Source of the DNA: Thermobifida halotolerans | GTDB taxonomy: Bacteria > Actinomycetota > Actinomycetes > Streptosporangiales > Streptosporangiaceae | Length of the DNA stretch: 64,000 bases | Assembly: GCF_003574835.2 (NCBI RefSeq) | Contig: NZ_CP063196.1 | Location: forward strand, 1,860,001 to 1,924,000 | Direction: 5' to 3' | Shown here: piece after piece, positions 400 to 31,497 of the stretch | How the letters are laid out: each line of letters starts with the position of its first letter | Numbering within the stretch: the first letter of the stretch is position 1 | The notes under the pieces: generated by a model | What the model was told of the DNA's origin: nothing | Databases searched by the model: none | What the model saw: the letters and a program-made list of their open reading frames with translations, nothing else | Made by a program: the position numbers and the translations under genes

Positions 400-1476
400 T
401 CAGCGCAGGGCGGCGGAGAACCTCACCCAGCGGTCGAGCAGGTCCGCCGCGGCGCCCGAGTCGATCGCCCGGGCGGCGCGCTCCACCCCCGCTGCGACGT
501 CGTCCTCCAGCCTCCCGGAGAGCCCGGTGAACGCGGCCAGCGCCGCCGCCGCGTTGAGCAGGACCGCGTCCCGCACGGGTCCGGTCTCGCCGCGGACGAG
601 CCGACGGACCGCCTCGGCGTTGTCCTCCGCGTCCCCGCCGCGCAGGTCCGCGGCGCTTCCCCGGGGAAAACCGAGGCGCGCGGGATCCAGGGTGTGCTCG
701 CTGACCCGTCCTCCGGACACGGCCCACACCGTGCTGGTCGTCGTGGTGGTCACCTCGTCGAGGCCGTCGTCACCGCGTACGACGAGCGCCTCCGTCCCCC
801 TGCGGGCGAGCACCTCGGCCAGTGTCCGTGCCTTCTCCCGGAAGGCGCAGCCGACCAGCGCGCTCGACGGGCGGGCCGGGTTGGCGAGCGGTCCCAGCAG
901 GTTGAACGTCGTGGGAATCCCCAGCTCCCGGCGGGTCGCGCCGACGCGCCGGAACTCGGGGTAGAACACCGGGGCGAAGCAGAAGCCGATGCCCAACTCG
1001 GCCACGCAGCGCTCCACGGCCTCGGGCGGGAGGTCGATCGCGACCCCGAGCCGCTCCAGCACGTCCGCCGCCCCGGCCCTCGACGAGGAGCTGCGGTTGC
1101 CCACCTTGGCCACCGGCGCCCCGCTGGCGGCCACGACGAGCGCCGCCATGGTGGAGATGTTCACCGAGTCGGACCGGTCCCCGCCGGTGCCGACGACGTC
1201 GACCGCCGGCCGGTCGAGCCGTACCCGGCGGACGCGGGCGAGCATCGTCTCGACCATGCCGGAGACCTCGGTCGCCGTCTCGCCCTTGGCCCGCAGCGCC
1301 ACCATGAACGCGGCGGCCTGCGCGGGTGTGGCGTTCCCCGACACGATCTCCTCCAGGGCCCACGCGGCGTCCTCCTCGCGCAGGTCCACACGGGCGACGA
1401 GCTGGTCGAGCAGCCGCGGCCAGGAGCGGGGCGGCGCGGCCGCGTCGATCGTCGGTGTTGCGGTCCGCTCGCTCAT
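400..1476 (-). CDS. trpD: TrpD-like anthranilate phosphoribosyltransferase (divergent)
   Basis: 358 residues, the normal length for anthranilate phosphoribosyltransferase, which joins anthranilate to PRPP. The PRPP loop VGTGGD, the NIST motif, the GNRSSSS loop, the RRELG and FNLLGPL blocks and the metal-binding DE (in GLDE) are all present. Two conserved His positions differ: the usual KHGNR is KVGNR (about residue 124) and the usual HPAM-type His is YPEF (about residue 171). These line the anthranilate site in characterised enzymes, so an altered aromatic substrate is possible. It lies 34 bp downstream of the VOC dioxygenase gene on the same strand with an RBS (GAAGGA), suggesting co-transcription. 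No trpE, trpF or trpB is seen in the window. Confidence 0.9.
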   Translation of the reverse strand: MSERTATPTIDAAAPPRSWPRLLDQLVARVDLREEDAAWALEEIVSGNATPAQAAAFMVALRAKGETATEVSGMVETMLARVRRVRLDRPAVDVVGTGGDRSDSVNISTMAALVVAASGAPVAKVGNRSSSSRAGAADVLERLGVAIDLPPEAVERCVAELGIGFCFAPVFYPEFRRVGATRRELGIPTTFNLLGPLANPARPSSALVGCAFREKARTLAEVLARRGTEALVVRGDDGLDEVTTTTTSTVWAVSGGRVSEHTLDPARLGFPRGSAADLRGGDAEDNAEAVRRLVRGETGPVRDAVLLNAAAALAAFTGLSGRLEDDVAAGVERAARAIDSGAAADLLDRWVRFSAALR

Positions 1477-1510
1477 TGTCGGCTCGGTCCTTCCTGTCTC
1501 GGCGGGGCCG

Positions 1511-2431
1511 CTAGGCGCCGTGGGAGTCGGTCATCAGCTCGGCCAGGTCCTCCGGCCGCAGGAAGGACGGCGGCGGCGGAGGCCCCCAGCTGTAGAGTCC
1601 CAGGGCGCCCTCGAACACCTCGGGCTTCCAGAGCTGGTCGTCCACGATGCAGTCGGTGTCGCTGTAGTACTCGGAGAAGTTGCCGGCGGGGTCCTTGAGG
1701 TACCAGAAGAAGTTGGACCCGACGTGGTGCCGCCCCAGTCCCCAGACGTGGCGCTCGGGGTGGTCCTCCAGCATCCTGACCGCCCCACGCCCCACCTCGT
1801 CGACGCTGTCGACCTCCCACGAGGTGTGGTGCAGGAAGTTCACGGGGGCGCGCAGCAGGAGCAGGTTGTGGTGGTCGGTGGTGCATCTCATGAAGGCCCC
1901 CGCCTCCTTGACCAGGTCGCTGATCTTGAAGCCGACGCCGTCCACGAAGTAGGTCCTGGACACCTCGAAGTCGATGCTGCCGAGCACGACGTGTCCCAGT
2001 TTGCGGGGGCGCACCGGCCCCTCCCGCGTGATCCCGGGCGCGCGGCTGCCGACCCGTTCGACCCGTCCGGGGCCGTTGTACGGGACCGCCGGCTGCCGGG
2101 GCTGGCGGAGCCGCTCCTGGATCTCCAGGGTGACCGTCGTCCCGGTGACCGGCTCCGCGCTGACCAGCCGGCCGCCGGTCCGCCGGTGGCCGATTCCCAG
2201 CCGGTCGAGCCGGGACGCCACCCGGCTCAGGTCGTCCTCGTCGTCGACTCCCACGGTGAACCCGATGAGACGGCGCCTGGGGGTCTGCACCAGGCGCAAC
2301 TGTTCTCCTCCGTCCACCGTGGCGAACCATCCGTCGCGGGTCGGGGTGAGGCCGAAGTCTGCGTAGTAGGCCGACGTCTCGGCGAGGTTGGGCACACCGA
2401 CAGTGACCGAGGCCATTTTGTGCAGCGCCAC
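1511..2431 (-). CDS. VOC-superfamily extradiol (catechol-type) dioxygenase
   Basis: The open frame extends to 2836, but the GTG at 2431 has a good RBS (AAAGGG, 8 nt upstream) and the family match begins there with 'MASVTVGVPNLAETSAYY', so a 306-residue protein is proposed. Two VOC repeats are visible. The second carries the full Fe(II) triad of type I extradiol dioxygenases: His in KLGHVVLG (about 147), His in NFLHHTSWE (about 199) and Glu in FSEYYSD (about 253). The length fits BphC/HpaD-like enzymes that open catechol rings next to the diol. In this locus a hydroxylated anthranilate or another dihydroxyaryl intermediate is a plausible substrate. The first gene of a two-gene unit with trpD. 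Confidence 0.85.
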   Translation of the reverse strand: MALHKMASVTVGVPNLAETSAYYADFGLTPTRDGWFATVDGGEQLRLVQTPRRRLIGFTVGVDDEDDLSRVASRLDRLGIGHRRTGGRLVSAEPVTGTTVTLEIQERLRQPRQPAVPYNGPGRVERVGSRAPGITREGPVRPRKLGHVVLGSIDFEVSRTYFVDGVGFKISDLVKEAGAFMRCTTDHHNLLLLRAPVNFLHHTSWEVDSVDEVGRGAVRMLEDHPERHVWGLGRHHVGSNFFWYLKDPAGNFSEYYSDTDCIVDDQLWKPEVFEGALGLYSWGPPPPPSFLRPEDLAELMTDSHGA

Positions 2432-2880: not shown

Positions 2881-3534
2881 TTGGCTCTTTCGAAGATCGT
2901 CTCGCGCGATGAGTGGCTGGCCGCGCGCAGGGATTTCCTCGCCAAGGAGAAGGAGTTCACCCGCGCGCGGGACGCGCTGAACGCCCAGCGCCGCGAGCTC
3001 CCGAGGGTACTGGTCGACAAGGACTACGTCTTCGACTCCCCCGAGGGGGGGAAGAAGAGCCTTCTCGACCTGTTCGAGGGACGCCGCCAACTGGTCGTCT
3101 ACCACTTCATGTCGCCCCCCGAGACCGGCGAGTTCTGTGTGAGCTGCTCGTTCTGGGTGGACAACATCGGCCACCTCGCGCACCTGCACGCCCGCGACAC
3201 CACCCTGGTCGTGGACTGCCCCGTGCCGCTGGACAGGATCGAGCGGTTCAAAAAGCGCATGGGCTGGACCGTGCCGTGGGTCTCCTCCCAGGGAAGCGAC
3301 TTCTACAGGGACCTCCACTTCGCGGTGGACGGCCCCGACCCGCTGCCGCCCGGCGTCAGCGCCTTCGTGCGGGAGGGCGACAGGATCTTCCACTCCTACT
3401 CGACGCACAACCGCGGCAGCGACCTGCTCAACACGACCTACAACTACCTCGACATCACCCCGCTGGGCAGGCAGGAGGAGGGGCTGCGGTTCAAGCAGGA
3501 GTGGGTCCGCTACCACGACTGCTACGACGCCTAG
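2881..3534 (+). CDS. DUF899 family thioredoxin-fold protein
   Basis: TTG start at 2881 chosen because GGAGG lies 8 nt upstream and the family's N-terminal consensus (S-R-D-E-W-L-A-A-R, then EKEFTRARD) begins there; 217 residues. Characteristic family blocks follow: YHFMSPP, CVSCSFWVDN with a CxxC pair, KKRMGWTVPWVSS and DFYRDL. DUF899 proteins have a thioredoxin-like fold; no reaction is firmly established. It is the first gene of the plus-strand biosynthetic set (NRPS follows after 188 bp), so a redox or chaperone role for the locus is possible but unproven. Confidence 0.85.
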   Translation: MALSKIVSRDEWLAARRDFLAKEKEFTRARDALNAQRRELPRVLVDKDYVFDSPEGGKKSLLDLFEGRRQLVVYHFMSPPETGEFCVSCSFWVDNIGHLAHLHARDTTLVVDCPVPLDRIERFKKRMGWTVPWVSSQGSDFYRDLHFAVDGPDPLPPGVSAFVREGDRIFHSYSTHNRGSDLLNTTYNYLDITPLGRQEEGLRFKQEWVRYHDCYDA

Positions 3535-3722
3535 CGTCCGCCGCGCCCGCGCACCGGCTCTCGTCCCCGGAGGACGCCCGTCGTCCTCCGCGGTCGGCGG
3601 GACGTGCCCTCCTCCCCCGCGAGCACGGCACGGTCGCCACGCGCGGAAGGGCGGCCGGCTCCCCGACGCGCCCGCGCCCCTCCGGAGAGACGAACGGAAC
3701 GAACGGACTGGAGTAACTGACG

Positions 3723-5489
3723 ATGCCTGATTCCCTCCACGAGCGCTTCGCCGTCCAGACCGGACGGACCCCGGACGCGGTCGCGGTGTCCTCCGGAGAC
3801 GTCCGGTTGACCTACCGGGAGCTGGACGAGAGGGCCAACCGGCTGGCGCACCGGCTGCTGTCCCTGGGAGCGGGGCCCGAGGTCCCGGTCGCGGTGCTGC
3901 TGGACCGCTCCGTCGAGGTGGTGGTCGCGACCCTGGCCGTGCTCAAGACCGGGTCGTTCTACCTGCCGCTGCACACCGCCCACCCGCTGGAACGCATGCA
4001 GTGGATCATGGACCGCGCGGGCGGTCCGGTCCTGCTCACCGACCGGAGGACCGCGCGCGGACGCGCCCTGCCCCGGGGCGGCCGGGTCGTCACCGTCGAC
4101 GACGACGGCCTGACCGGGCTCCCGGACTCCTTCCGCTCCCCCGCCGTCTCTCCGGACAACCTCGCCTACGTGATGTACACGTCAGGGTCGACGGGGACGC
4201 CCAAGGGTGTCGCCGTCACCCACCGGGACGCCCTGGGCCTGGCCCTGGACCCGTGCTGGGACGACGAACGGTACCGGCGCGTGCTGATGGTGGCCCCCTA
4301 CGCCTTCGGCATGTCGACCTTCGAGCTGTGGGTGCCGCTGCTGCACGGCGGCCGGATCTCCGTGGCGCCGCCCGACGAGCTCGACGTCGCCACCCTGCGC
4401 CGCCTCCTCCGCGAGGAGGAGATCACGTGCGTCCACCTGACCGCGGGACTGTTCCGCGTCGTGGCGGAGGAGGATCCGGGGTGTCTCGCCGGAGTGCGCG
4501 AGGTGATGACGGGCGGTGACGTGATCTCCCCGGCGGCGGTCCAGCGGGTGCTGGAGGTGTGTCCCGACATCGTTGTACGGGCGATGTACGGGTCGACCGA
4601 GACGACGCTGTTCGCCACCTGCTCGACCGTGCGCGCACCCTACGAGGCGGGGACGAGCGTACCGGTCGGCTTCCCGATGAAGGACATGCGCGCCTACATC
4701 CTCGACGAGCGTCTGCGGCCGGTCCCCGCCGGGGCCACGGGTGAGCTGTACGTCGCCGGCACGGGGGTGGCGCGGGGCTACCTGGGCCGCCCGGACCTGA
4801 CGGCGGAGCGCTTCGTCGCCGACCCGTTCACCGGAGCCGGCGAACGGATGTACCGGACCGGGGACCTCGCACGCTGGACCCCCGACGGCCAGGTCGACTT
4901 CGTCGGGCGCGTCGACCACCAGGTGAAGATCCGCGGCTTCCGGGTGGAGCCGGCGGAGGTGGAGGCCGTTCTGGCCGGGCACCCCGCGGTCTCCCAGGTC
5001 GCCGTGGTGGCGCACGAGTCCGCCCCCGGCGAGAAGCGGCTGGCCGCCTACGTCGTGGCCGACGGCTCCGTCGCGGCTGTGCGGGCCTACGCCTCGGAGG
5101 CGCTGCCGGACTACATGGTGCCGTCGGCGTTCGTCGAACTGGACGCCCTGCCGCTGACCCCGAACGGGAAGCTGGACCGCAGGGCGCTGCCGTCCCCCGA
5201 ACCGGAGAGCACCTCGACGTACCAGGCGCCCCTCACCCCCGTGCAGGAGACCCTCTGCGCCGTCTTCGCGGACGTGCTCGGCGTCTCCCGCCGGGTGGGC
5301 ATCGACGACGACTTCTTCGAGCTGGGCGGACAGTCCCTGCTCGCCATGCGGATCCTGCTGCGCGTCGAACTGGAGCTGGGCGCCAAGCTCCCCGTCGAGG
5401 CGCTGTTCGACTCCCCCACGGTGGCCCTGCTGTCCGAGAAGGTCGAAAAGGCCATGGACCGTTCGTCCCTGGGCGCCGCGGCGGAATAG
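3723..5489 (+). CDS. NRPS adenylation-PCP didomain protein, aryl-acid-type A4 motif
   Basis: 588 residues with no condensation domain. A-domain cores: [11 protein letters not shown] (A3), YGSTETT (A5), YRTGDL (A7), the KIRGFRVEP block (A8) and [10 protein letters not shown] (A10). The PCP follows with the 4'-phosphopantetheine Ser in LGGQSLL (about residue 537). In A4 the usual FDxSxxE is FGMSTFE: the Asp that binds the alpha-amino group is Gly (about residue 194). My hand-threaded ten-position code is approximately G-M-F-H-M-G-M-L-F-K. Loss of that Asp is typical of domains for acids without an alpha-amino group, so an anthranilate or hydroxyanthranilate, or 4-hydroxymandelate, is a better guess than an ordinary amino acid. 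The MbtH gene follows after 120 bp. Confidence 0.95.
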
Positions 5490-5609: not shown

Positions 5610-5822
5610 GTGACGAACCCCTTCGACGACCCGACCGGCTCCTACACCGTGCTGTGCAACGCGGAGGGGCAGCACTGCCTGTGGCCCGGCTTCGCGGCCT
5701 CCCCCGACGGGTGGACCGTCGTCCACGGTCCGGACGGCCGCGACGCCTGCCTCGACTACGTGCGGACCCACTGGACCGACATCCGCCCGCGGAGCCTGGC
5801 GGCCGCGGACTCCCCCTCCTGA
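5610..5822 (+). CDS. MbtH-like NRPS adenylation chaperone
   Basis: 70 residues from GTG 5610, with AGGAAGGA 6 nt upstream. It starts [10 protein letters not shown] and contains the family blocks [13 protein letters not shown] and WTDIRPRSL. The Ser commonly found in the QHSLWP block is Cys here. MbtH proteins bind A domains and are often required for their solubility and activity; the partner is presumably the A-PCP protein immediately upstream. Confidence 0.95.
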
Positions 5823-5908: not shown

Positions 5909-6997
5909 GTGACCACGTCAACGACTCGGGCGTTCGAAGGAATGCTCGTCGACCACGTCAAGTTCTACGTCAGCGACGTCGAAGCGGCCGAGAAGCGGTT
6001 CGTCGACAGCTACGGTCTCTCCGTCTACGCGACCTCTTCCCTCTCCGACCCGAAACCGCGGGTCCGCTCCCGGGGCATCGGCGGGGGGCGGATCCGTCTG
6101 GTGTTCACCGAGCCCCTGGCCGACGACCACCCCGGCGCCGCCTATCTCGACAGGCACGGCGATGGCGTGGCCGACATAGCGCTGCTCGTCGCGGACGCCT
6201 CCGCCAGCTTCAACGAGGCGGTGCGGCGCGGCGCCCGTCCGGTGACGCCGCCCACGGAGCGGGACGGCGTCACGACCGCGACGATCGCGGGGTTCGGCGA
6301 CGTGACGCACACCTTCGTCCAACGTGCCCGGGGCGTCGACGAGCGGGCGCTGCCCTCCCTGGCCCCGGTCTCCGCCGCGGCGCCCTCAGGGCGGTCCCCC
6401 GGTCTCACCGAGATCGACCACTTCGCGGTCTGCCTGGAGGCGGGCGACCTGGACCCGACGGTGCGGTTCTACGAGGAGGTCCTCGACTTCGAGATGATCT
6501 TCACCGAGCACATCGTCGTCGGCTCCCAGGCGATGCACTCGAAGGTCGTCCAGAGCGCCTCCGGCGCGGTCACCCTGACCCTCATCGAACCCGACCTGTC
6601 CAGGACCCCCGGCCAGATCGACGAGTTCCTGAAGAACCACGGCGGCGCCGGAGTCCAGCACATCGCTTTCACCGCTGACGACATCGTGGAGGCCGTGGAG
6701 TCCATCGGCTCCCGGGGGGTGGAGTTCCTCGACACCCCACCCACCTACTACGACCTCCTGGCGGAGCGTCTGGAGGTGGCCCGGCACTCCGTCGACGACC
6801 TGCGGCGGCTCAGCGTCCTCGTCGACGAGGACCACGACGGCCAACTCTTCCAGATCTTCGCCCGGTCCACGCACCCCCGCCGGACCTTCTTCCTGGAGCT
6901 CATCGAGCGCCTGGGGGCGCGCACCTTCGGCAGCGGCAACATCAAGGCGCTGTACGAGGCCGTGGAACTGCAGCGCAGCGGCCAAGGCGCCCGTTGA
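5909..6997 (+). CDS. hmaS: 4-hydroxymandelate synthase-like 2-oxoacid dioxygenase (HPPD superfamily)
   Basis: 362 residues from GTG 5909, with ACGGAG 8 nt upstream. A two-domain VOC enzyme with non-heme Fe(II) ligands visible as His in EIDHFAV, His in GVQHIAF and Glu in FFLELIER. It matches HmaS of glycopeptide clusters more than HPPD by eye: HGDGVADIA, the block EHIVVGSQAMHSKVVQSASG, TLTLIEPD, and the C-terminus FGSGNIKALYEAVEL; Streptomyces HPPDs carry different residues in these blocks. HmaS converts 4-hydroxyphenylpyruvate to 4-hydroxymandelate, HPPD to homogentisate. Hmo and HpgT homologues that would carry 4-hydroxymandelate on to hydroxyphenylglycine are absent from the window, so the hydroxy acid itself may be incorporated. 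HPPD activity cannot be excluded. Confidence 0.85.
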   Translation: MTTSTTRAFEGMLVDHVKFYVSDVEAAEKRFVDSYGLSVYATSSLSDPKPRVRSRGIGGGRIRLVFTEPLADDHPGAAYLDRHGDGVADIALLVADASASFNEAVRRGARPVTPPTERDGVTTATIAGFGDVTHTFVQRARGVDERALPSLAPVSAAAPSGRSPGLTEIDHFAVCLEAGDLDPTVRFYEEVLDFEMIFTEHIVVGSQAMHSKVVQSASGAVTLTLIEPDLSRTPGQIDEFLKNHGGAGVQHIAFTADDIVEAVESIGSRGVEFLDTPPTYYDLLAERLEVARHSVDDLRRLSVLVDEDHDGQLFQIFARSTHPRRTFFLELIERLGARTFGSGNIKALYEAVELQRSGQGAR

Positions 6998-7169: not shown

Positions 7170-8555
7170 ATGAGCGTGACGGTGACATCGGACGGAGCGA
7201 GCCCTCCCGAATCCGGGATTCCGCTGTCCTCCACCCAGGAATTCCTGTGCATGTTCAACGACGGCTCCGACGAGGGGCCCTTCGGGCCCATGTACCACGT
7301 GGTCCGCGGATGGCGCGTCCGCGGCGCGATCGACGTCGCGGCCCTGCGGGGGGCGTTGGGCGACGTGGTGGAGCGCCACGAGGCGCTGCGCACGGCGATC
7401 GTCCGCGGAGGGCAGGTTCCGCACCAGCGGATCCTGCCCGCGCGCCCGCCGAAGCTGCTCGTCCAGGACATCTCCGTGCCCGACCCGCGCCTGCGGGACC
7501 GCCGGGTCGAGGAGTTCCTCAACGAGGTCGAGGCGACCGAGCACCACGTCGGCGACCTGCCCCTGCTGCGCGCGGTGCTGGGCCGTCTCGACGACGACGA
7601 CGCGGTCCTGGCCCTCCTCGCCCACCACACCGCCTGCGACGGGTGGTCCCTGCGGCTGATCATGCGCGACCTCGCCTCCCTCTACGCCGCCCGCTCGGGA
7701 CACGAGGCCCCCGAGCTTCCGGAGGCCCGCCAGTACCGGGAGTACACGCTCTGGCAGCGGACGGACCCGACCGCCGACCGGACGCGGGAGGCGCGCGACT
7801 ACTGGCGGGACAAGCTCCGGGAGGCGCGGCTGCTCGCCGTTCCCACCGACCGGCCGAAGACGGACCGGGTGGGGCGGACGACCTCGACACGCCGCTTCCT
7901 GATCGACGCGGACCTGACCTCCGCGACCCTGCGGTTCTCCGCCTCGATGCGCTGCTCCCCCTTCATGGTCCTGCTCTCCGCCTACAACCTGCTGCTGCAC
8001 CGCAGGACGGGGGAGACCGACGTCGTCGTTCCGACGATCACCTCCGGTCGCGGCCACGCCCGGTTCGAGGAGACGGTCGGGTCGTTCTTCAACTTCCTGC
8101 CGCTGAGAACGGACCTCTCCGACTGCGCGACCGCGCGCGAGGTGGTCGAGCGCACCCGGGCCACCTGTCTGGGCGCACAGCGGCACGACATCCCCTTCGC
8201 CCAGATCCTGGAGGAGTCTCCCCAGCTCATGCAGGCCGCCTCCGATCCCGCCCGGGCGCTGTGCGCCTTCCAGGTGTTCCAGAACCCGTTCGTCCTGGAC
8301 GGCAGGTCGATCGGCGACCTCGAGTACTCCGAGGTGCGCAGGCGCCTGCTCTCGCAGCCCGTCAGCTCCGACATCCCGGACGGCGCGCTGTGGACCCTGG
8401 ACATCGACCCGTCCGGGGAGATGTTCGGGAACCTGAAGTTCGACGGCGAGGAGTTCGACGAGAGCACGGTGGACGGCATGATCGAGGACTTCCGCCGCCT
8501 GCTGCGCCAGGTGGTCACCGCGCCGGACGCTCCCGCGGGGGTCGTCTCGGACTGA
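7170..8555 (+). CDS. Free-standing NRPS condensation domain
   Basis: 461 residues from ATG 7170, with GAAGGAGAGG upstream. The catalytic HHxxxDG is intact as HHTACDG, preceded by SSTQEFLC (C1 region) and RHEALRT, and followed by YWRDKL, GSFFNFLPLRTD (C5-like) and a QNP motif. There is no linked A or PCP domain. It would accept acyl donors and acceptors presented in trans by the A-PCP protein and by CoA or carrier-bound partners; ester or amide formation with a hydroxy acid is possible. The last gene of the plus-strand set, followed by two strong hairpins. Confidence 0.93.
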   Translation: MSVTVTSDGASPPESGIPLSSTQEFLCMFNDGSDEGPFGPMYHVVRGWRVRGAIDVAALRGALGDVVERHEALRTAIVRGGQVPHQRILPARPPKLLVQDISVPDPRLRDRRVEEFLNEVEATEHHVGDLPLLRAVLGRLDDDDAVLALLAHHTACDGWSLRLIMRDLASLYAARSGHEAPELPEARQYREYTLWQRTDPTADRTREARDYWRDKLREARLLAVPTDRPKTDRVGRTTSTRRFLIDADLTSATLRFSASMRCSPFMVLLSAYNLLLHRRTGETDVVVPTITSGRGHARFEETVGSFFNFLPLRTDLSDCATAREVVERTRATCLGAQRHDIPFAQILEESPQLMQAASDPARALCAFQVFQNPFVLDGRSIGDLEYSEVRRRLLSQPVSSDIPDGALWTLDIDPSGEMFGNLKFDGEEFDESTVDGMIEDFRRLLRQVVTAPDAPAGVVSD

Positions 8556-12171: not shown

Positions 12172-14012
12172 TACGCCTCCTCTACGTCCGTGGCGGACTG
12201 GGGGCGGAGGACGCACAGGTCGGCCCAGCCCGCCGCCACAACGGTGTTCGCTTCGTTGAGAGTCCTGGCCGCGCCGTCGGCGACGACGGTCATCCCCGTC
12301 TCGTTGCGGACCGCGTCGCAGATCTGGGCGACGCGCACGGCCGTCTCGGACACGTCCGCGCTCCCCTGCCCGGGTTCCAGGAACAGGACGTCGACGCCCC
12401 AGTCCCGGAGGGTCCTGGCGAGCGCGACGGCGTCCTCGGCCGCGGTCTCCACTTCGCCCGCCCGGTCGACGCCGACTGCAGCCGCGATCAGGTGTCCGTG
12501 CGGTGTCTCCTCCCGGAGTGCGGCGAGGAGCCGCTCCGGGGGCCGCTTCCGCAGTCGCCGGAGCGACTCCCCCGACAGGTCGAGGACCACCGAGGCGTAG
12601 CCCTGGCCGTGGGCCTCGCGCGCCCACATCCGGCACTCCTCGGGGCCTACCGAGCGCGGCAGGCGGACGAGGGTCGGCACGTCCTCGCGCCTGGGCCGGG
12701 GAAGCGCCGGGGGCCCGGCCTCCCCGCTCCCGTGCGCGCCCGTCTCCGGGACCGGCCCGGTCACCGCGAGACCGCCGTCTCCCCCCTCCTCGGTCACCAG
12801 GCGGTTGCGCGTCGTCAGGGCCCCGATCCGTTTCGGGGTGAGCGCCGGGGGCGGGGCGGCGTCCGCGGTCCGCCCCGTGGCGCGGGCGTGGAACCACCTG
12901 TCGAACTCGGCGACGAACCCCGGATCCCGCTCGGCGACCTCCTCGTGGGTGATCCGCCAGGAGCGCACCATCAACTGGTAGGCGAACTGCATCGGCGCGA
13001 AGTCGCGGTACCGTTCCAGGTTCTGGAAGTAGCGCTCGGAGAGGCGGGAGGCCGCCTGGAATCTCTCGACCCTGCCGCGGCGGGCCCCGGCGAAGCGCTC
13101 CAGGGCTCCCCGGACGTCGCCCGGCCGCTCGGCCAGCGCCCCGGCCAGCGCGACGGCGTCCTCGATCGCCAGTCTGGTCCCCGACCCGATCGACCAGTGC
13201 GCGGTGTGGGCGGCGTCCCCCACCAGGACCACGTTGCGGTGGTGCCATCTGGCGCACCGCAGGTAGGGGAAACTGCTCCAGGGCGCCCCGCCGGACAGCA
13301 CCGTCCCGCCCCGCAGGTCCTCGGCGAAGACCTGCTCGCAGAGGTGGGCCGAGGCCTCCTCGTCCATCCCGGAGAGCCCGGCCCTGTGCCAGGTCTCCTC
13401 CGAGACGTGGACGATCATCGAGCTCCACGGCTGCCCGGAGGGGTAGCAGTAGGCCTGGAACAGCCCCCACCGCGTCTCCCGGAAGATGTAGGTGAAGTAG
13501 GGGAAGACCCGGTCGACCCCGTACCAGGCGTACTTGGAGCTCGACCGCCGCGTCCTGGGTTCGAAGAACTCCTCCAGTTCCCGGCGGACGACGGAGTTGA
13601 CGCCGTCGGCTCCCACCACGAGGTCGGCCTCCCCGTGTTCCTCCAGTCCGTTGACCCGGTGGCCGAAGTGGAGCCGGGCTCCCCGCTTCTCCGCGGCCTC
13701 GCCCAGGATGGCGAGCAGGGCCGCCCTGGGCACTCCGTGGAAGCCGTTCCCGTTGACCAGCATCCGGGACGAGCGGCGCCTGATGTCCACCAGGCTCCAG
13801 GCCACGCCCGCCGCCTTGACCGCGGCGCAGGCCGCGCCGTCCACCTGTTCCAGGGCCCTCAGCGCGCCCTCGGGGAAGACCAGCCCCCATCCCCGGTCCG
13901 CGTCCCGCCCGTGGCGTTCGAACACCCGGACGTCGTCGGCCGTGCCGTCCCTGCGGAGCAGCCCGGCGAGGAGCAGCCCGGCCGGTCCGCCGCCGATTAT
14001 GTCGACCCGCAT
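12171..14012 (-). CDS. Anthraniloyl/salicylyl-CoA 5-hydroxylase-type flavoprotein with degenerate OYE half
   Basis: 613 residues from ATG 14012 (GGGAGG upstream), overlapping the trpA-like stop by 16 nt. Residues 1 to about 390 are an FAD monooxygenase: GGGPAGL, GADGVNSVVR and GDAAHTAHWSIGSG followed by TRLAIEDAVALA, the pattern of salicylyl-CoA 5-hydroxylase and 2-aminobenzoyl-CoA monooxygenase/reductase. The C-terminal part starts like an old-yellow-enzyme domain (LTTRNRLV, about residue 404) and ends with an FMN-site-like block (TVVADGAARTLNEANTV, then AGWADLCVLRP), but it is only about 220 residues and the central substrate/NADPH blocks of OYE are missing. Hydroxylation without ring reduction is the likely outcome. 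Its substrate probably comes from the adjacent CoA ligase. Confidence 0.87.
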   Translation of the reverse strand: MRVDIIGGGPAGLLLAGLLRRDGTADDVRVFERHGRDADRGWGLVFPEGALRALEQVDGAACAAVKAAGVAWSLVDIRRRSSRMLVNGNGFHGVPRAALLAILGEAAEKRGARLHFGHRVNGLEEHGEADLVVGADGVNSVVRRELEEFFEPRTRRSSSKYAWYGVDRVFPYFTYIFRETRWGLFQAYCYPSGQPWSSMIVHVSEETWHRAGLSGMDEEASAHLCEQVFAEDLRGGTVLSGGAPWSSFPYLRCARWHHRNVVLVGDAAHTAHWSIGSGTRLAIEDAVALAGALAERPGDVRGALERFAGARRGRVERFQAASRLSERYFQNLERYRDFAPMQFAYQLMVRSWRITHEEVAERDPGFVAEFDRWFHARATGRTADAAPPPALTPKRIGALTTRNRLVTEEGGDGGLAVTGPVPETGAHGSGEAGPPALPRPRREDVPTLVRLPRSVGPEECRMWAREAHGQGYASVVLDLSGESLRRLRKRPPERLLAALREETPHGHLIAAAVGVDRAGEVETAAEDAVALARTLRDWGVDVLFLEPGQGSADVSETAVRVAQICDAVRNETGMTVVADGAARTLNEANTVVAAGWADLCVLRPQSATDVEEA

Positions 14013-14812
14013 CCGTCCTCCCTCTTCCGCTCGCGAAGCCGGGTGGCGTCCTTCCAGCGCCGGACGTTCGCGCGCAGTGTGTCCAGGCGGTCCCTCGGCT
14101 CCGCGGCTCCGAGGAGTTCGAGGAGCCGGCTGCCGACGACCAGTCCCGCCGCGTGGGGCGCCAGCGCGCGGATCTCGTGCTCGTCGCGGATTCCGAAACC
14201 GGCCAGGAACGGTTTCCCCGCGGTGGCGGCCAGTGCCGCCACGGCGCGTCGCGCCTCCGCCAGGTCCAGCCGCTCTCCGGTACGGGCCGCGAGGCCGCGG
14301 TACGTCATGTGGCCGGCGGCCGCCTCCAGCCGTCCGGCGTCGGCGGCGGAGGGGCCGATGAGGGGGACCGCGCTCAGGTCCGCGGCCGCGACCCTCTCCA
14401 CCTCCTCCGGCCCCCGGGGGCCGGCGAGCACCAGCCCGTCGACTCCGGCCTCGCGGGAGCACCGCACAAGCCGGTCCCAGCCCAGGTCGTCCACCGTCCG
14501 GGGGTAGACCAGCGGAAGGATCGGGGTCCGCGGCAGCGCCTCGCGGATCTCGCCGAGAAGCCCCCACACCCGTTCCTCGCCGAGCCCGGCGGCCCGTTCG
14601 AAGGACTCCCTGACCAGCGCCCCGCGGGGCCGCGTGCTCGGCGTGGGAAGGCCCAGTTCCACCATGTCCGCCCCCGCCTCCACGGCGGCCACGGCCGCCT
14701 CCACGGGCGAGCCCGGCAGCGGGTCGCCCAGGGTCAGGTACACGACCAGCATCCGTTCCCGTCGCGCGTCGGCCCGCCGCAGGCGGTCGCCGATCCGGTC
14801 TACCGCCCCCAC
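13997..14812 (-). CDS. TrpA-like protein lacking the catalytic Asp loop
   Basis: 271 residues from GTG 14812, overlapping the stop of the upstream IGPS-like gene by 13 nt. A TIM barrel related to tryptophan synthase alpha: LVVYLTLGDP, GADMVELGLP (the catalytic Glu, about residue 53), AGFGIRDEHE and AAGLVVGSRLLE. The next conserved segment, normally PFSDPxADGP with the catalytic Asp, reads PTPSTRPRG, so that Asp and the DG are gone. No trpB is in the window. It probably does not make indole from IGP in the usual way; another aldolase-like or a binding role is possible. Confidence 0.82.
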   Translation of the reverse strand: MGAVDRIGDRLRRADARRERMLVVYLTLGDPLPGSPVEAAVAAVEAGADMVELGLPTPSTRPRGALVRESFERAAGLGEERVWGLLGEIREALPRTPILPLVYPRTVDDLGWDRLVRCSREAGVDGLVLAGPRGPEEVERVAAADLSAVPLIGPSAADAGRLEAAAGHMTYRGLAARTGERLDLAEARRAVAALAATAGKPFLAGFGIRDEHEIRALAPHAAGLVVGSRLLELLGAAEPRDRLDTLRANVRRWKDATRLRERKREDGCGST

Positions 14813-15516
14813 GCCTCCGCCCCGTTCCGCAGTGTCCGCACCGTGGCGGCCGGATCGTCGCTCTTCGCCACGGCGGTGCCCACGAGCACCGCGTCGGCTC
14901 CGGCCTCCGCGGCCCTGGCCACGTCCGCCCCGGTCCTGAAGGAGCTCTCCGAGATGGCGTACATCCCGTCGGGGAGCCCGGCCATCAGGGACTCGCTGAG
15001 ACTCACCGTGCCGTCGTCCATCTCCAGGACCGTGATGTCCCGGTTGTTGATGCCCACCGCGACCGCGCCCAGGTCGACCGCGGTCTCCAACTGGGCGGCG
15101 CTGTGGACTCCGACGACCACCTCCATGCCGAGCCTCTCGGCCCTGGCCTTCATCCGGCGGAAAAGCCCGATGTCGGGGACGGTGCTCAGGGAGAGCTGCA
15201 CCGCGTCGAATCCGGCCTCGTGCGACTCGTCGATCTGCTCGATCGTCCGGAAGAACTCCTTGCGCATCAGCGGGACTCCGGCGGCCCGCCGAATTCTGCG
15301 CGCCTTCTCGACGCTTCCGTCGAAGTACACCGGGTCGGTCGGGGTGGACAAGGCGTCGACGCCGCCGTCGACAAGTGCGCGGACATAGGATTCCAAACGG
15401 CTTTCCGGTATGAGCTCACCGTCGCGGGGAGACCGGAACTTGACATCGACCATCACTGCGATATTCCCACCGGCACGCGCGGCGGCGAGCACTTCGTAAA
15501 GACTGCGGACGCCCAC
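14800..15516 (-). CDS. IGPS (TrpC)-like barrel with altered catalytic residues
   Basis: The first gene of the minus-strand operon. GTG 15516 gives 238 residues; an in-frame TTG at 15555 has AGAGAGG 8 nt upstream and is a credible alternative (251 residues). The fold is clear: VDVKFRSPRDG, PLMRKEFFRT, GINNRDITVLEMD, ISESSF, AVLVGTAVA. The catalytic Lys residues, Asn and Arg are kept, but the first Glu (EVK) is Asp (VDVK) and the essential Glu of the LVEVH strand is Gly (VVGVH, about residue 137). The N-terminal helical region usual in TrpC is also short. It is probably not a standard IGPS; it may act on a related ribulose-phosphate adduct of a modified anthranilate. Confidence 0.85.
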   Translation of the reverse strand: MGVRSLYEVLAAARAGGNIAVMVDVKFRSPRDGELIPESRLESYVRALVDGGVDALSTPTDPVYFDGSVEKARRIRRAAGVPLMRKEFFRTIEQIDESHEAGFDAVQLSLSTVPDIGLFRRMKARAERLGMEVVVGVHSAAQLETAVDLGAVAVGINNRDITVLEMDDGTVSLSESLMAGLPDGMYAISESSFRTGADVARAAEAGADAVLVGTAVAKSDDPAATVRTLRNGAEAWGR

Positions 15517-16151: not shown

Positions 16152-16943
16152 GTGGTCGTCAAACAACCAGCGGTGTCGGTGTACTCCTCGTATCTGGCCT
16201 TGGACGAACTCCTCTCGGTACAGCGGCCGAACACGGACGAGCACGACGAGATGCTCTTCGTCGTCGTCCACCAGACGCACGAACTGTGGTTCAAGCAACT
16301 GCTCCACGAGTTCGCCGGACTGCAGCGGAGTCTCGCGGCGGGCGACGCGGCACGGGCGCTGCGTCTCCTGCACCGGTCGGTGGCCATCCTCAGGGTGGCC
16401 ATCTTCCAGATCGGCGTCCTGGAGACCATGGGTCCTTCGCAGTTCTCCGGGTTCCGGGACCACCTGGGGGGCAGCGGCTTCCAGTCGGCCCAGTTCCGCG
16501 AACTCGAGGCCGTCCTGGGCGCACGCAACCGCCAGGCGTTCCAGCGCTATCCCGAGGACAGCGAGGAGCGGAGGCGGATCGAGGCGGCGATGACCCGGCC
16601 GCCCCTCTTCGACTCCCTCCTCGGCTATCTGGCCGCCCAGGGCTACCCGGTACCGGAGGAGCGGCTGCGCCGGGACGTGTCGCTTCCGGCGGAGCCCTCG
16701 GCGCGGGTCCAGGACGCGCTGGTGCTGGTCTACCGCGACGACGGTGTTCCGGCGCAGATCTGCGAACGGCTGCTCGAGCTCGACCAGAGCGTCCAGGAAT
16801 GGCGCTACCGCCACGTGAACATGGTGCAGCGGATCATCGGGGACAAGACCGGAACCGGCGGCTCCACCGGCGCCGCCTACCTGCGCACGACCCTGTTCAC
16901 CCCGGCCTTTCCCGACCTGTGGGCTGTGCGGAACGCGCTATGA
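16152..16943 (+). CDS. kynA: Tryptophan 2,3-dioxygenase
   Basis: 263 residues from GTG 16152, with GGAGAGG about 10 nt upstream. The heme dioxygenase signature residues are all in place: the distal His in VVHQTHELW (about 40), the substrate-binding Arg in GFRDHL with SGFQSAQFR, the axial heme His in WRYRHVNMVQR (about 221), and the GTGGSTG loop that binds the tryptophan carboxylate/ammonium. It cleaves the indole ring of tryptophan to N-formylkynurenine. The stop overlaps the kynureninase start (ATGA), so the two are translated together. Confidence 0.96.
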   Translation: MVVKQPAVSVYSSYLALDELLSVQRPNTDEHDEMLFVVVHQTHELWFKQLLHEFAGLQRSLAAGDAARALRLLHRSVAILRVAIFQIGVLETMGPSQFSGFRDHLGGSGFQSAQFRELEAVLGARNRQAFQRYPEDSEERRRIEAAMTRPPLFDSLLGYLAAQGYPVPEERLRRDVSLPAEPSARVQDALVLVYRDDGVPAQICERLLELDQSVQEWRYRHVNMVQRIIGDKTGTGGSTGAAYLRTTLFTPAFPDLWAVRNAL

Positions 16944-18124
16944 GTGACCAGTCAGCGCGCCTTGCCCCGCACTACTCGAGGTTCCGGGTGGCGCAGCGCC
17001 TGCTGCTGTCGGGGCACTCCCACCAGGCCTGGCCCGACGTGGCGCTGGAGGGCCAGGTCGAGGCCTTCGAGGACGCGGCGTCGGCGGTGGACGACAAGTG
17101 GGCCAGGGCCTTCGCGAAGGCCGACCGGGTGCGTGACGGGTTCCGGCTCTTCCTCGGCGACCGCGGGGCCGAACTCGCGCTGGGGGCGAGCACGCACGAA
17201 CTCGTCCTGCGCTTCCTGTCGGTCCTGGACCTGCGCTCCAGACCCCGGCTGGTCACCTCCGACGGGGAGTTCCACAGTCTGCGGCGCCAGCTCTCCCGGA
17301 TCTCCGAGGAGGGGGTCGAGGTCGTCCGGGTCCCCTCCGCTCCCGTCGACTCCCTCGCCTCCCGGCTGGCCGACGCCCTCGACGACCGGACCGCCGCGGT
17401 GCTGGTCTCCACGGTGATGTACCAGACCGCGCGCATCGTCCCCGGGCTGGACACACTCGCCGAGGCGTGCCGGCGGCGCGGCGTGGAACTGCTCCTCGAC
17501 GCCTACCACGCCCTGGGAGCCGTTCCGTTCTCGACCGCCGGGATCGAGTCGGCGTGGGTCGTGGGAGGTGGCTACAAGTACCTCCAACTCGGGGAGGGCA
17601 ACTGCTTCCTGCGGCTCCCCGAGCACGCCGACAGCCTGCGGCCGGTGGTCACCGGCTGGTTCGCGGAGTTCTCCGGAGCCGCCGGGAGCGGCGCCGGCGG
17701 CCCCGTCGGGTACGCGGCCGGCGCGGCCCGCTACGCGGGGGCCACCTACGACCCGACCAGCCACTACCGCGCCGCGCGGGTGTTCGACTTCTTCGCCGAG
17801 CACGGCCTGACGCCCGGCTTCCTGCGCGAGGTCTCCCTGCGCCAGGTGGGCCTGCTGGCCGAGCGCTTCGACGCGATCGGCGCCCCCGACCACGTGATCA
17901 CCCGAGACCGCACCGGCTCGCCGGAGGACTTCGGCGGTTTCCTCTCCCTGCGGTCGCCCCACGCCGCGCGCCTGTGTGAGCGCCTCGCCTCGCGGGGCGT
18001 CCGGGTCGACCACCGCGGGGAGCGTCTGCGTCTCGGTCCCGCCCCCTACCTCTCAAACTCCCAACTCGTCTCCGCGATGGACCTGCTGGCTGCGGAGCTT
18101 TCCGCGTTGGACGGCCCCACCTGA
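16940..18124 (+). CDS. kynU: Kynureninase-like PLP enzyme
   Basis: 394 residues from ATG 16940. A class V aminotransferase-fold PLP protein. The SxHxE-type and LLDAYHALGAVPF segments provide the Asp pairing with the PLP nitrogen, and the Schiff-base Lys is in GGGYKYLQLGEG, like the YKYLN motif of kynureninase. Kynureninase hydrolyses kynurenine to anthranilate and alanine (or 3-hydroxykynurenine to 3-hydroxyanthranilate). The ATGA overlap with tryptophan dioxygenase and the formamidase nearby make this assignment strong. No flavin kynurenine 3-monooxygenase is visible, so anthranilate is the more likely product. Confidence 0.9.
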   Translation: MSDQSARLAPHYSRFRVAQRLLLSGHSHQAWPDVALEGQVEAFEDAASAVDDKWARAFAKADRVRDGFRLFLGDRGAELALGASTHELVLRFLSVLDLRSRPRLVTSDGEFHSLRRQLSRISEEGVEVVRVPSAPVDSLASRLADALDDRTAAVLVSTVMYQTARIVPGLDTLAEACRRRGVELLLDAYHALGAVPFSTAGIESAWVVGGGYKYLQLGEGNCFLRLPEHADSLRPVVTGWFAEFSGAAGSGAGGPVGYAAGAARYAGATYDPTSHYRAARVFDFFAEHGLTPGFLREVSLRQVGLLAERFDAIGAPDHVITRDRTGSPEDFGGFLSLRSPHAARLCERLASRGVRVDHRGERLRLGPAPYLSNSQLVSAMDLLAAELSALDGPT

Positions 18125-18253
18125 CCCGACGCGCTCCGGCGGGGCCGCGCGGCTCCCGCGGGTCGGCGTCCCGGGGAGGGGCCGGGCCCGGTCGCTCCCG
18201 GTCCCGCAGCGCGCACGCAGTGACCCCAACGATGCTGATGAGGTCGATCACCC

Positions 18254-19633
18254 ATGAAAGAGCACTCCCTGACAGCCCCAGGACGCCTCCCCGACCCCGC
18301 CGGACAGGCATGGCCCCCACACGTCGGTGTCGGAGGGGTCAGCCTCCGCGGAGCCCGCACGGCCCCGCACGGCCACTCGCCCGCCCGTGCCCTCAACCGG
18401 GTCGCCGAATGGGCCGACGCGCTCGACGACCCGGCGACCCCCTCCGGGACCGCCCGGGACTTCCCGTTCGGCGAGGTCCTGGAGCACTACCAGGCCCTGG
18501 GACGCGCCCACGCCTCCCCCGAGCTGGTGTCCTGCCTCCGCGCCCTGTACCGCCGCCTCCCCCCTGCGCGCTCGGCCGAGGAGGCCGTGCTCGCCGACTG
18601 GCTGCCCAGCACGTTCGACCAGCACGACGGCGACTACGACTCCTACCTCGCCGCCCCGATGCTCGAACGGCTGGCCGCGGCGGAGGGGCCTGAGGAGGTC
18701 GACACGGTCCTGGACGTCGAACTCCTGGCGCTCCTGGCCGACCTGGCGAGGACCGAGGGCGAGGCCCTGGCGGAGTCCGCGGACTCGCGGCGACAGCGGC
18801 AGCGCACCCACGCCGCCCTGCAGGCCCTCACCCACTGGCCGGAGCTGGCCCCCAGGGCCCGCCTGCGCCTTGCCGGGCTCTCGCTTCCGCCCCCGGTCCC
18901 CCGCGACGACCCCTCGCTGGCCTCGGTCACGCTGGACCGCGCGTGGAAGATCCTGGACGAGACACCGGAGCTGGTGCGCCGCGCGGCCGAGGCGTCCCTG
19001 CTCCCCACCACCCCGCTGCACGACGAGGTGATGTTCATCCGCAGCGTCCAGTTGTTCGAGATCGTCTACAGGCAGGTCCTGCGCTGCCTTGAGCGCGCCG
19101 CCGCCGCCCTGAGCGTCCGCGACACCGCCACGGCGGGCGCCGAACTCGGCGACGCGGTGCGCCGCGTCGAGAGCACCCCCTCCCTCTTCCGGGTCCTCAC
19201 CACGATGTCGCGCGAGTCGTTCGCGGTGATCCGGGCCTACACCGACGGGCGCAGCGCCATCCAGTCCCGCGCCTACCGCCTGGTCGAGCGGACCGGGGCG
19301 CCGCGGCCGCCGGGACCCTTCTCCGACAGGATCCCGAAGGTGGAGGTCACCGGTCCGACCGTGCAGGAGGCGTACGTGTCGTGCGCGGCCGCCGTGGACG
19401 GGACCGCGCTGCGCCACGTCGCCGAGGCGATGGCGCGCCTCGACCGGGGGTGGCGCGCCATGAAGCGGACCCACTGGGGGATCACGCTGAAGATCATCGG
19501 CAACGTCACGGGCACCGGTGGCACCCCCGGCGCCGACTACCTCAGGACCACCGCCGCGATTCCCCTGTTTCCCCTGCTCCACGAACCGCAGGAACGGAGT
19601 GGAGCACACGCCGAGGAGGCTTCCGATGTCTGA
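18254..19633 (+). CDS. Divergent TDO-superfamily heme protein, N-terminally extended
   Basis: 459 residues, against about 270 for bacterial TDO. The C-terminal half aligns with TDO: HDEVMFIRSVQLFEIVYRQV, IRAYTDGRSAIQSRAYR, the axial heme His in KRTHWGITLKIIGN (about 406) and GTGGTPGADYLRTT. The distal His of TDO is Val here (about 264), while the Arg, the QS Ser and the GTGG Thr are kept. The first 200 or so residues form a helical extension (DWLPSTFDQHDGDYDSYL) that I cannot place. TDO-fold relatives such as MarE and PrnB catalyse other indole oxidations in natural-product pathways. A second, different oxidation of an indole or kynurenine-like intermediate is the best guess. It overlaps the methyltransferase gene by 8 nt. 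Confidence 0.82.
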   Translation: MKEHSLTAPGRLPDPAGQAWPPHVGVGGVSLRGARTAPHGHSPARALNRVAEWADALDDPATPSGTARDFPFGEVLEHYQALGRAHASPELVSCLRALYRRLPPARSAEEAVLADWLPSTFDQHDGDYDSYLAAPMLERLAAAEGPEEVDTVLDVELLALLADLARTEGEALAESADSRRQRQRTHAALQALTHWPELAPRARLRLAGLSLPPPVPRDDPSLASVTLDRAWKILDETPELVRRAAEASLLPTTPLHDEVMFIRSVQLFEIVYRQVLRCLERAAAALSVRDTATAGAELGDAVRRVESTPSLFRVLTTMSRESFAVIRAYTDGRSAIQSRAYRLVERTGAPRPPGPFSDRIPKVEVTGPTVQEAYVSCAAAVDGTALRHVAEAMARLDRGWRAMKRTHWGITLKIIGNVTGTGGTPGADYLRTTAAIPLFPLLHEPQERSGAHAEEASDV

Positions 19634-20630
19634 CGCCGACGACCTGAACGGCCTGCTGCGCCGCAAGATCATGGGGTTCGTCGTCTCCCAGGCGATCATC
19701 TCCGTCACCCGGCTGCGCGTCGTCGAGCATCTCGGCGAGGAGGCCCTCGAGGTGCGGGAGCTGGCGCGGCGCGTCGGGGCGGACCCCGACGCCCTCCACC
19801 GGTTCCTGCGCCTCCTCGTCGCCGAGGGGCTCTTCGTCGAGCAGCCGCCCGGCGTCTTCGCGACCACTCCGCTGGGCGCGCTGCTGCACGAGGACGTCCC
19901 CGGATCGCTGCGGCACTTCGCCGCGCTGATGGACAACGAGGCCTACCAGGCCTGGTCGGCGGCCCTGCACTCGCTGCGCACCGGCGAGCCGGCGTTCGAC
20001 GTCGTGTTCGGGAAGCCGATGTTCGACTGGCTGGGCGAGCGGCCCGACGCCTCGTCCGCCTTCAACGCGGCCCAGGCGGGCCTGGTGACCCTGCGCCTGC
20101 TGCCCCTGGTGGAGCGGGACTGGAGCGGGGTGGGCACGGTCGTCGACGTGGGCGGCGGCAACGGACGTCTGCTGGGGGCGCTGCTGTCGCGGCACGAGCA
20201 CCTGCGCGGCGTCCTGTTCGACCTGCCGCACGTGGTGCGGGAGGCCGAACGCTCCGTGGGCGGGCCGCGGGACCGCCTCCGCGTGGTCGGCGGCGACTTC
20301 TTCTCCGCGGTCCCCTCCGGTGGCGACGTCTACGTGCTCGCCCAGATCCTGCACGACTGGGACGACGACAGGGCGGTGCGGATCCTGCGGCGGTGCGCCG
20401 AGGCCATGACGCCCGACTCCCGGCTGCTCATCCTGGAACAGGTCGTCCCCGAAGGACCGCAGCCCCACCCGGCGAAGATGCTCGACCTGCACATGCTCGT
20501 CCTGCTCGGTGGGCGCGAACGCACCGAGAGCGAGTGGGGCCGGCTGCTGGAGAGGGGAGGTTTCCGGGTGGCGGCGATCGACCGCTCGGCGCGCTCGTCC
20601 CTGATCGAGGCGCGCCCGACGGGCGGCTGA
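19626..20630 (+). CDS. SAM-dependent O-methyltransferase family (PF00891) protein
   Basis: 334 residues from ATG 19626, preceded by GAGGAGG inside the upstream gene. The N-terminal dimerisation/winged-helix region ends about residue 100; the SAM site is VVDVGGGNG, the catalytic His region is QILHDWDDD, and LLILEQVVPEGP follows. Members methylate phenolic oxygens, and in pyrrolobenzodiazepine clusters homologues methylate carbon of 3-hydroxykynurenine. The acceptor here could be the hydroxyanthranilate unit or the final product. The last gene of the TDO operon; a strong terminator follows. Confidence 0.9.
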   Translation: MSDADDLNGLLRRKIMGFVVSQAIISVTRLRVVEHLGEEALEVRELARRVGADPDALHRFLRLLVAEGLFVEQPPGVFATTPLGALLHEDVPGSLRHFAALMDNEAYQAWSAALHSLRTGEPAFDVVFGKPMFDWLGERPDASSAFNAAQAGLVTLRLLPLVERDWSGVGTVVDVGGGNGRLLGALLSRHEHLRGVLFDLPHVVREAERSVGGPRDRLRVVGGDFFSAVPSGGDVYVLAQILHDWDDDRAVRILRRCAEAMTPDSRLLILEQVVPEGPQPHPAKMLDLHMLVLLGGRERTESEWGRLLERGGFRVAAIDRSARSSLIEARPTGG

Positions 20631-31493: not shown

Positions 31494-31497
31494 GGTG

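Follow-up and report, generated by a model that had tools for sequence, protein, structure and literature searches.

In a 64,000-nucleotide stretch of the Thermobifida halotolerans genome (contig NZ_CP063196.1, positions 1,860,001 to 1,924,000; hereafter the window, in whose numbering positions are given), eighteen genes at 400..20630 (g1-g18) belong, judging by the genes around them, to an enediyne cluster as its decorating part. We propose that they constitute the peripheral-moiety branch of a probably 9-membered enediyne cluster and would make two acyl units, one of them derived from anthranilate and served by a five-gene cassette, g14-g13-g12-g11-g10. We put the probability of this reading at about 0.68. 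The new element, as read from sequence, is an apparently neofunctionalised pair of TrpC- and TrpA-like proteins (g14 and g13), accompanied in seven of nine genomes by genes for an aryl-coenzyme A (CoA) ligase and a monooxygenase and by enediyne genes. The enediyne setting, the recurrence of the cassette and the residue changes in the pair are observed directly, and from them we infer substrates, order of steps and product. An initial annotation had described the region as a nonribosomal peptide synthetase (NRPS) locus. A free-standing NRPS locus is rejected because enediyne genes flank g1-g18 on both sides; the region is instead read as the peripheral-moiety part of an enediyne cluster.

Genes were called with a simple codon-usage script and named by profile, the profile scans taking in g1-g42. 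To the right of g1-g18, on the minus strand, lie genes for an AhpD-like protein, a GMC oxidoreductase, a DUF5987 protein, a P450 and two DUF1702 proteins (enediyne-associated; g25-g30, 26794..33586, by profile), and beyond them, on the same strand, a flavin reductase, an enediyne-type thioesterase (E10) and an iterative polyketide synthase (PKS; E) (g35-g37, 38689..45524, by profile and solved relatives). The best solved relatives of the thioesterase g36 are 4i4j, an ACP-polyene thioesterase (E 1.6e-74), CALE7 (2.9e-63) and DYNE7 (7e-43). The PKS, g37, has 1939 residues and a KS-AT-KR-DH arrangement, and its AT region matches DYNE8 among many PKSs. On the other side, 8-11 kb left of the window, the genes for UnbV (E4, at 8-10 kb) and an RnfD-like E5 are neighbours. 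E4 passes the cut-off of the UnbV_ASPIC profile; E5, at 25.6 bits, falls just under the RnfD-like cut-off of 27.7 and adjoins E4 as it does in relatives. Between E4/E5 and g1 are an epoxide hydrolase, a SnoaL protein and an HpaB-type hydroxylase (by profile), and also left of the window are an acyl-CoA-dehydrogenase-like protein and a flavin adenine dinucleotide (FAD) protein (by profile) and a P450 (from sequence reading only). In relatives DUF1702 genes adjoin E4/E5, and the DUF1702 proteins may correspond to enediyne E3. Within the region itself, the free-standing condensation domain g7 (7170..8555, plus strand) has as its best solved relative 4znm (C-domain type II; E 2.5e-141, the next solved relative reaching 7.9e-40), which we take to be SgcC5 of C-1027.

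The ranking of thioesterase relatives, the epoxide hydrolase and the 4znm-like condensation enzyme suggest that the cluster is probably of the 9-membered type, for which the published criterion is E2 present and R3 absent (PMC5181780). A search for the neocarzinostatin-type apoprotein family PF00960 gave no match in the genome, but gave none in the control either. An enediyne chromoprotein is annotated in one genome that shares the cassette, Streptomyces sp. ADI95-16, together with a tyrosine 2,3-aminomutase.

The cassette genes occupy a single strand (minus) with overlapping ends. They encode the TrpC-like protein (g14, 14800..15516, with a proposed GTG start at 15516), the TrpA-like protein (g13, 13997..14812), an FAD monooxygenase (g12, 12171..14012) related by profile to salicylyl-CoA 5-hydroxylase and VioD and shortened and poorly conserved in its C-terminal part, a PaaK-like aryl-CoA ligase (g11, 10840..12171, by profile) and a DUF6052 protein whose gene overlaps that of the ligase (g10, 10590..10859, by profile). 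With g14 as query, six loci with relatives were found in genome contigs. Of 345 genomes in the order, a g14 profile matched four, among which only G318 was new, the others being that of the window and two known already; of 390 genomes in the family of Actinokineospora it matched four, none of them new. Both counts include genomes from which the profile was built. One of 72,556 plasmid records matches, that of Streptomyces sp. ADI95-16. The g14-g13 pair thus occurs in nine genomes, the window's included, and the full cassette in seven of these: the window, a Sphaerisporangium metagenome-assembled genome, Amycolatopsis roodepoortensis, Actinophytocola xinjiangensis, Actinokineospora fastidiosa, G318 and ADI95-16. 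In Actinophytocola xinjiangensis, g12-g11-g10 lie ~30 kb away from g14-g13. Chance does not explain the gene set, five of whose members occur side by side in seven genomes.

All seven full-cassette genomes possess the PKS, the thioesterase, E4 and E5, and the PKSs of the other six are 55-68% identical to g37. The enediyne genes share a contig with the cassette in six of the seven, and the order of genes around the two differs among these; in Amycolatopsis they are on different contigs. The DNA compared per relative ranged from 20 to 115 kb, so that absences carry little weight in the short stretches (the Amycolatopsis cassette locus, L011, and the loci L008 and L010 of the two genomes with the pair alone).

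The initial annotation had recognised g14 and g13 as a second TrpC and a TrpA homologue. Membership of the families stands (g14, Pfam indole-3-glycerol-phosphate synthase (IGPS) family, 132 bits against a cut-off of 27; g13, Pfam 95 bits against 27, with TIGR00262 at 76 bits under its cut-off of 102), but both are divergent and lack essential residues, and they do not look like ordinary enzymes. As controls, 60 genomes were searched per family and the 30 best-scoring places taken, a choice that favours canonical residues; the IGPS set consists of 29 such places plus the genome's own TrpC, and the TrpD and TrpA sets of 30 each, which the genome's own TrpD and TrpA bring to 31 in the column comparison. 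In the nine g14 copies, the essential Glu159 (Sulfolobus numbering; Glu168 in Mycobacterium tuberculosis) is Gly in eight and Cys in one, against Glu in 30/30 ordinary IGPS, and Glu51 is Asp in every copy. Lys53, Lys110, Arg182, Glu210, Ser211 and Gly233 are kept in all nine and Asn180 in eight. Helix alpha0 is missing, the conserved extension before the barrel being ~21 residues long instead of the ~50 of ordinary IGPS, and in a tree the g14 relatives form a single clade on a long branch (support 100/100). In the M. tuberculosis enzyme, Glu168 stands 2.8 Å from the nitrogen of indole-3-glycerol phosphate (IGP); exchange for Ala left no detectable activity and exchange for Gln made the enzyme >9000-fold slower, and a Glu57Asp variant keeps 35% (PMC10591298). 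Since this Glu is lost in all copies and its mutants are inactive or far slower, g14 should not be an ordinary IGPS.

The TrpA-like protein has changed in a corresponding place. Asp60, whose hydrogen bond to the ring nitrogen has been described for an IGP analogue (PMC9512447) and which is Asp in 30/30 ordinary TrpA, is Arg in eight copies of g13 and Lys in one. Glu49 is kept in all nine copies, as in all 30 controls, and so are Tyr102, Thr183, Gly184, Gly213, Gly234 and Ser235. Asp56 and Pro57, which belong to what we take to be the loop that meets TrpB, are lost in 9/9. In both proteins, then, the acid facing the ring nitrogen is gone and most residues for phosphate binding and proton transfer are retained. 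They resemble IGPS and TrpA in fold family and in most catalytic and phosphate-site residues, and differ from them in lacking, in g14, Glu159 and helix alpha0 and, in g13, Asp60 and the TrpB-contact loop. The changed active sites of g13 and g14 would fit a changed substrate, and the two are apparently neofunctionalised.

The other two trp homologues of the region are of a different kind, and the idea that all four are alike is rejected: g9 is canonical, and g13 and g14 are not. The indole-3-glycerol-phosphate synthase g9 (TrpC, 9790..10593, minus strand; NF001369 424 bits, cut-off 329) keeps all ten residues checked in an alignment to IGPS, falls among ordinary actinomycete TrpC in the tree and shares 67% identity with the TrpC encoded elsewhere in the genome. 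The TrpD paralogue g1 (anthranilate phosphoribosyltransferase, 400..1476, minus strand; TIGR01245 374 bits, cut-off 199) keeps the anthranilate-binding Asn109 and Arg164 and has His107 and His154 replaced (Sulfolobus numbering). Both His are lost in 3/3 cluster TrpD copies and invariant in 30/30 control TrpD. Their equivalents are dispensable in Sulfolobus TrpD (PMC10520873), which weakens any need for a modified anthranilate in the cluster TrpD. From these residues g9 looks canonical and g1 largely so, and either may simply supply precursor. The earlier suggestion that the trp homologues act on a changed substrate therefore fits g13 and g14 with their altered active sites, and does not extend to all four alike, as g9 and perhaps g1 could be supply copies.

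Elsewhere in the genome, which comprises 5.5 Mb in two contigs, a further TrpC and TrpA are encoded at C1:730.5-733.7 kb; between their genes lies that of a pyridoxal phosphate (PLP)-fold protein that reads as TrpB. A second TrpD is found at C1:559 kb. Because trpC-(trpB)-trpA and trpD exist elsewhere, the window copies are paralogues, and the view of the initial annotation that they stand outside the primary pathway holds. It had also placed trpE, trpF and trpB outside the window. The window has no credible match to TrpB (best E 0.27) and the whole genome none to the TrpF family PF00697; no TrpE-type family turned up in the scans of g1-g42, and no genome-wide search aimed at trpE was made. 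Actinomycetes use PriA in the place of TrpF, and a host PriA would be the source of 1-(o-carboxyphenylamino)-1-deoxyribulose 5-phosphate (CdRP).

We suggest that the first acyl unit is a hydroxymandelate-type acid made by g6 (5909..6997, plus strand), loaded on the stand-alone adenylation-peptidyl carrier protein (A-PCP) g4 (3723..5489, plus strand, by profile) with the MbtH-like protein g5 (5610..5822, plus strand, by profile) and attached through the SgcC5-like condensation enzyme g7. The dioxygenase g6, of the 4-hydroxymandelate synthase/4-hydroxyphenylpyruvate dioxygenase (HPPD) type, is closest among solved proteins to 2r5v (PCZA361.1; E 2.9e-119), which we take to be a hydroxymandelate synthase, and as close to 7yvv, labelled HPPD; 3zgj follows (2.1e-83), other HPPDs reach 1.7e-59 or weaker, and g6 passes the NCBIfam 4HPPD cut-off. 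In g4, Gly stands at the position of the alpha-amino-binding Asp of the A4 motif (motif and numbering presumed), a change in keeping with a hydroxy acid. Relatives of the ADI95-16 tyrosine aminomutase, 74-75% identical to it, occur in Actinophytocola, Actinokineospora and G318; at a threshold of 1e-5 none was found in the window or its flanking DNA, or in the stretches compared from Sphaerisporangium and Amycolatopsis. Where four of the seven clusters carry beta-tyrosine, the window thus probably carries a hydroxymandelate unit.

For the second unit, tryptophan would be converted to anthranilate by the tryptophan 2,3-dioxygenase (TDO) g15 (16173..16943, plus strand), perhaps with g8 and g16. 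TDO matches its Pfam family at E 4.6e-54, is below the TIGR03036 cut-off (258 bits against 391) and keeps both His that we take to be haem-side. The gene list of the initial annotation is essentially right, except that the names kynureninase and formamidase rest on weak matches. The PLP enzyme g16 (16988..18124, plus strand), a divergent kynureninase-like protein, scores 29.9 bits with Pfam KYNU_C (cut-off 27) and 23.8 with TIGR01814 (cut-off 246), its best solved relative being the kynureninase 1qz9 (E 4e-11). The alpha/beta hydrolase g8 (8809..9642, minus strand), a possible kynurenine formamidase by profile and solved relatives, is closer to a carboxylesterase (E 6e-41) than to kynurenine formamidase (E 9e-6). 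Other assignments were confirmed by profile: TrpD g1, TrpC g9, TDO, the CoA ligase, the FAD monooxygenase, the A-PCP, the MbtH protein, the free condensation domain and the O-methyltransferase g18 (19626..20630, plus strand). From anthranilate, the TrpC/TrpA-like pair, the ligase g11 and the aryl-CoA monooxygenase g12 of the cassette would lead to an oxygenated, ring-fused acyl-CoA, to which g18 would add an O-methyl group before transfer to the enediyne core.

Most likely, the pair helps build this ring-fused, anthranilate-derived acyl group. In the ordinary enzymes each of the two lost acids makes contact with the ring nitrogen; one arrangement that would fit has a carboxylate beside the nitrogen, i.e. 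at indole C7. In such a scheme g14 would close the ring of CdRP, or of a substituted CdRP, formed by TrpD and host PriA, at the free ortho carbon, keeping the carboxylate and losing no CO2. Then g13 would cleave the 7-carboxy indole-glycerol phosphate to glyceraldehyde 3-phosphate and indole-7-carboxylate, the Arg or Lys in place of Asp60 binding the retained carboxylate. Since Pseudomonas aeruginosa IGPS accepts a decarboxylated substrate (PMC7681013), the chemistry of the IGPS fold allows attack at an ortho carbon that bears no substituent. Indole-7-carboxylate would next be activated by g11, hydroxylated by g12, methylated by g18 and attached to the enediyne as a DNA-binding bicyclic acyl group. 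In size this bicyclic aromatic acid matches those of neocarzinostatin and C-1027, and we know of no enediyne with such a moiety. We offer this carboxylate-retaining, indole-forming version tentatively, with more doubt than confidence.

Several observations weigh against our interpretation. The phosphate-contact residue Gly212 is kept in two of the nine g14 copies and is Ala or Ser in seven (Ala also occurs in 3/30 canonical IGPS). At 15/45 columns conserved in the canonical enzyme every g14 copy differs, with Leu137 now Gln/His and Ile139 now Ser/Thr, polar replacements of residues that presumably line the ring pocket of IGPS; for g13 the corresponding figure is 16/46. With so many changed columns, more than one carboxylate may separate the substrates from the ordinary ones. 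Loss of Asp60 should also cripple ordinary activation of the indole nitrogen, and an earlier report did find some activity for Glu168Ala IGPS (cited in PMC10591298). In two genomes, those of Pseudonocardia spinosispora (L008) and Actinomadura macrotermitis (L010), g10-g12 do not accompany the pair. The enediyne-type thioesterase was not found in the genome of the former; that of the latter has one, on another contig and at 50% identity. The supply genes are patchy, with a TrpD of the g1 type in 3/7 full-cassette clusters, TDO in 4/7 and g16 and g8 in the window only, as are g5, g6 and a true g9 among the clusters compared (the relatives of g9 at 31-37% in the neighbourhood table are g14 relatives). 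A complete kynurenine pathway is thus rejected as a shared feature, since g8 and g16 are seen only in the window. Given this patchiness of TrpD, TDO, g16 and g8, either primary metabolism must provide the other clusters with anthranilate or CdRP, or the substrate differs.

The chief rival is that the pair works on an oxygenated anthraniloyl-CoA, for instance an epoxide. Here g11 would form anthraniloyl-CoA, g12 would oxygenate or dearomatise it, and g14 and g13 would act as TIM-barrel isomerases or lyases that rearrange the product, with no phosphoribosyl compound involved. We regard this as a possibility of some weight, well short of even odds. The overlapping genes g10-g14 travel together on one strand, a cluster TrpD is missing from 4/7 clusters, and at 9938-15125 of L010 the g14- and g13-type genes enclose, in the place of g12, five genes that look, on reading by eye, like those of a Paa/Ant-type multicomponent oxygenase (no g10-g12 relatives occur in the 20 kb compared). 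Yet both enzymes keep most phosphate-site residues, which a CoA thioester would not necessarily require, and at L008 no g11 or g12 relative lies within 10 kb of the pair. It is distinctly improbable that g13 and g14 are instead non-catalytic partners that stabilise or regulate g12, g11 or host Trp enzymes. Each lacks a catalytic acid in all copies, as a pseudoenzyme might, but the remaining catalytic set, needless for a scaffold, is strictly kept in nine copies, and what stands in the place of the acids is specific and not random (Gly and one Cys; Arg or Lys).

Another alternative is that the extra trp genes merely raise the flux of tryptophan or anthranilate, the precursor-supply role ascribed to trpC2, trpD2 and trpE of the calcium-dependent antibiotic (CDA) cluster. 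For g9, with its ten residues, ordinary tree position and identity to the genome's own TrpC, and for g1, which passes the trpD cut-off and whose two lost His Sulfolobus TrpD can spare (PMC10520873), this could be so. The CDA cluster, which holds these three genes, likewise has trp copies within a natural-product cluster, where they are taken as recruited (PMC5270213). Supply cannot explain g13 and g14, which differ in having lost catalytic residues in all copies, with g14 in a long separate clade, and the window offers neither a trpB match nor, in the scans of g1-g42, a TrpE-type family. As an account of the whole set we consider supply unlikely. Very improbable is the remaining idea, that an NRPS/tryptophan cluster merely lies beside an enediyne cluster. 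The different contigs in Amycolatopsis would allow it. Against it stand the shared contig in six of seven genomes with differing gene orders, the position of g1-g18 between enediyne genes, the SgcC5-like g7, and the Amycolatopsis cassette locus L011 itself, which has relatives of two proteins encoded between E4 and g1, the epoxide hydrolase and the FAD protein.

In known clusters, parts of this arrangement recur. The C-1027 (sgc) cluster has thioesterase, free condensation enzyme, epoxide hydrolase, HpaB-type hydroxylase and SnoaL-type genes alike in kind and places two acyl units on its core, beta-tyrosine and a chorismate-derived benzoxazolinate. The window differs in having a hydroxymandelate-synthase-like gene, with no tyrosine aminomutase found, and a tryptophan/anthranilate branch in the place of benzoxazolinate. 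The antimycin, tomaymycin and anthramycin pathways lead from tryptophan to anthranilate by TDO-type enzymes, with a ligase or A domain for activation, and to our knowledge have no TrpC/TrpA-like pair and no enediyne PKS. The initial annotation knew of no characterised cluster with this exact gene set. The general idea of an enediyne cluster with tryptophan-degradation genes and an anthranilate-like moiety dates from 2016, when a survey described the uncharacterised cluster of strain CB03578, predicted to be 9-membered, and predicted such a moiety for it (PMC5181780). That cluster shares with ours the enediyne cassette, tryptophan-degradation enzymes, methyltransferases and activating and condensing enzymes; it differs in its reported apoprotein, none having been found here in a PF00960 search that lacked a working control. 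The words 'indole', 'tryptophan synthase', 'trpC' and 'glycerol phosphate' do not occur in the main text of the survey (PMC5181780). Among the open-licence PMC papers listed in our literature searches, none has a title on TrpC/TrpA homologues in enediyne clusters, and three contain both 'enediyne' and the name of IGPS.

Few natural products cut DNA as potently as the enediynes, whose aromatic side groups play a part in binding to DNA and protein. A rare five-gene cassette in seven enediyne-bearing actinomycete genomes points to an aromatic group whose biosynthesis is undescribed in the literature covered. IGPS and TrpA have apparently been rebuilt at residues that mechanism papers call essential, and the pair would thus probe how these folds redirect. 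CdRP and IGP, standard substrates of Trp enzymology, make for a sharp and cheap test of such redirection. If correct, a carboxylate-retaining pair would be a new reaction outcome for two Trp-pathway folds.

Beyond the enediyne genes on both sides, the initial annotation had left out g2, g6, g10 and g17. A VOC-fold extradiol-dioxygenase-like protein (g2, 1511..2431, minus strand, by profile) has a 69% relative, among the neighbourhoods compared, only at the Amycolatopsis cassette locus L011, and is followed by a DUF899 protein (g3, 2881..3534, plus strand, by profile). Beside TDO and g16 lies a degenerate TDO-like protein with a long N-terminal part (g17, 18254..19633, plus strand, by profile) of ~200 extra residues. 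One haem-side His is kept and the other is Val (Ile or Ala in relatives, which occur in Sphaerisporangium and Amycolatopsis and partially in Actinophytocola). In Amycolatopsis roodepoortensis the enediyne core (L031-L032, G004:C5:2387844-2406585) and the cassette locus, on their different contigs, may represent a split cluster. Two enediyne-type thioesterase genes lie within ~75 kb in each of Actinophytocola (G005:C12:420012-426183 and 482698-483144) and Actinokineospora (G006:C9:72461-78681 and 146363-146836); each adjoins enediyne-type PKS sequence, the second PKS copy being only partial in the stretches read.

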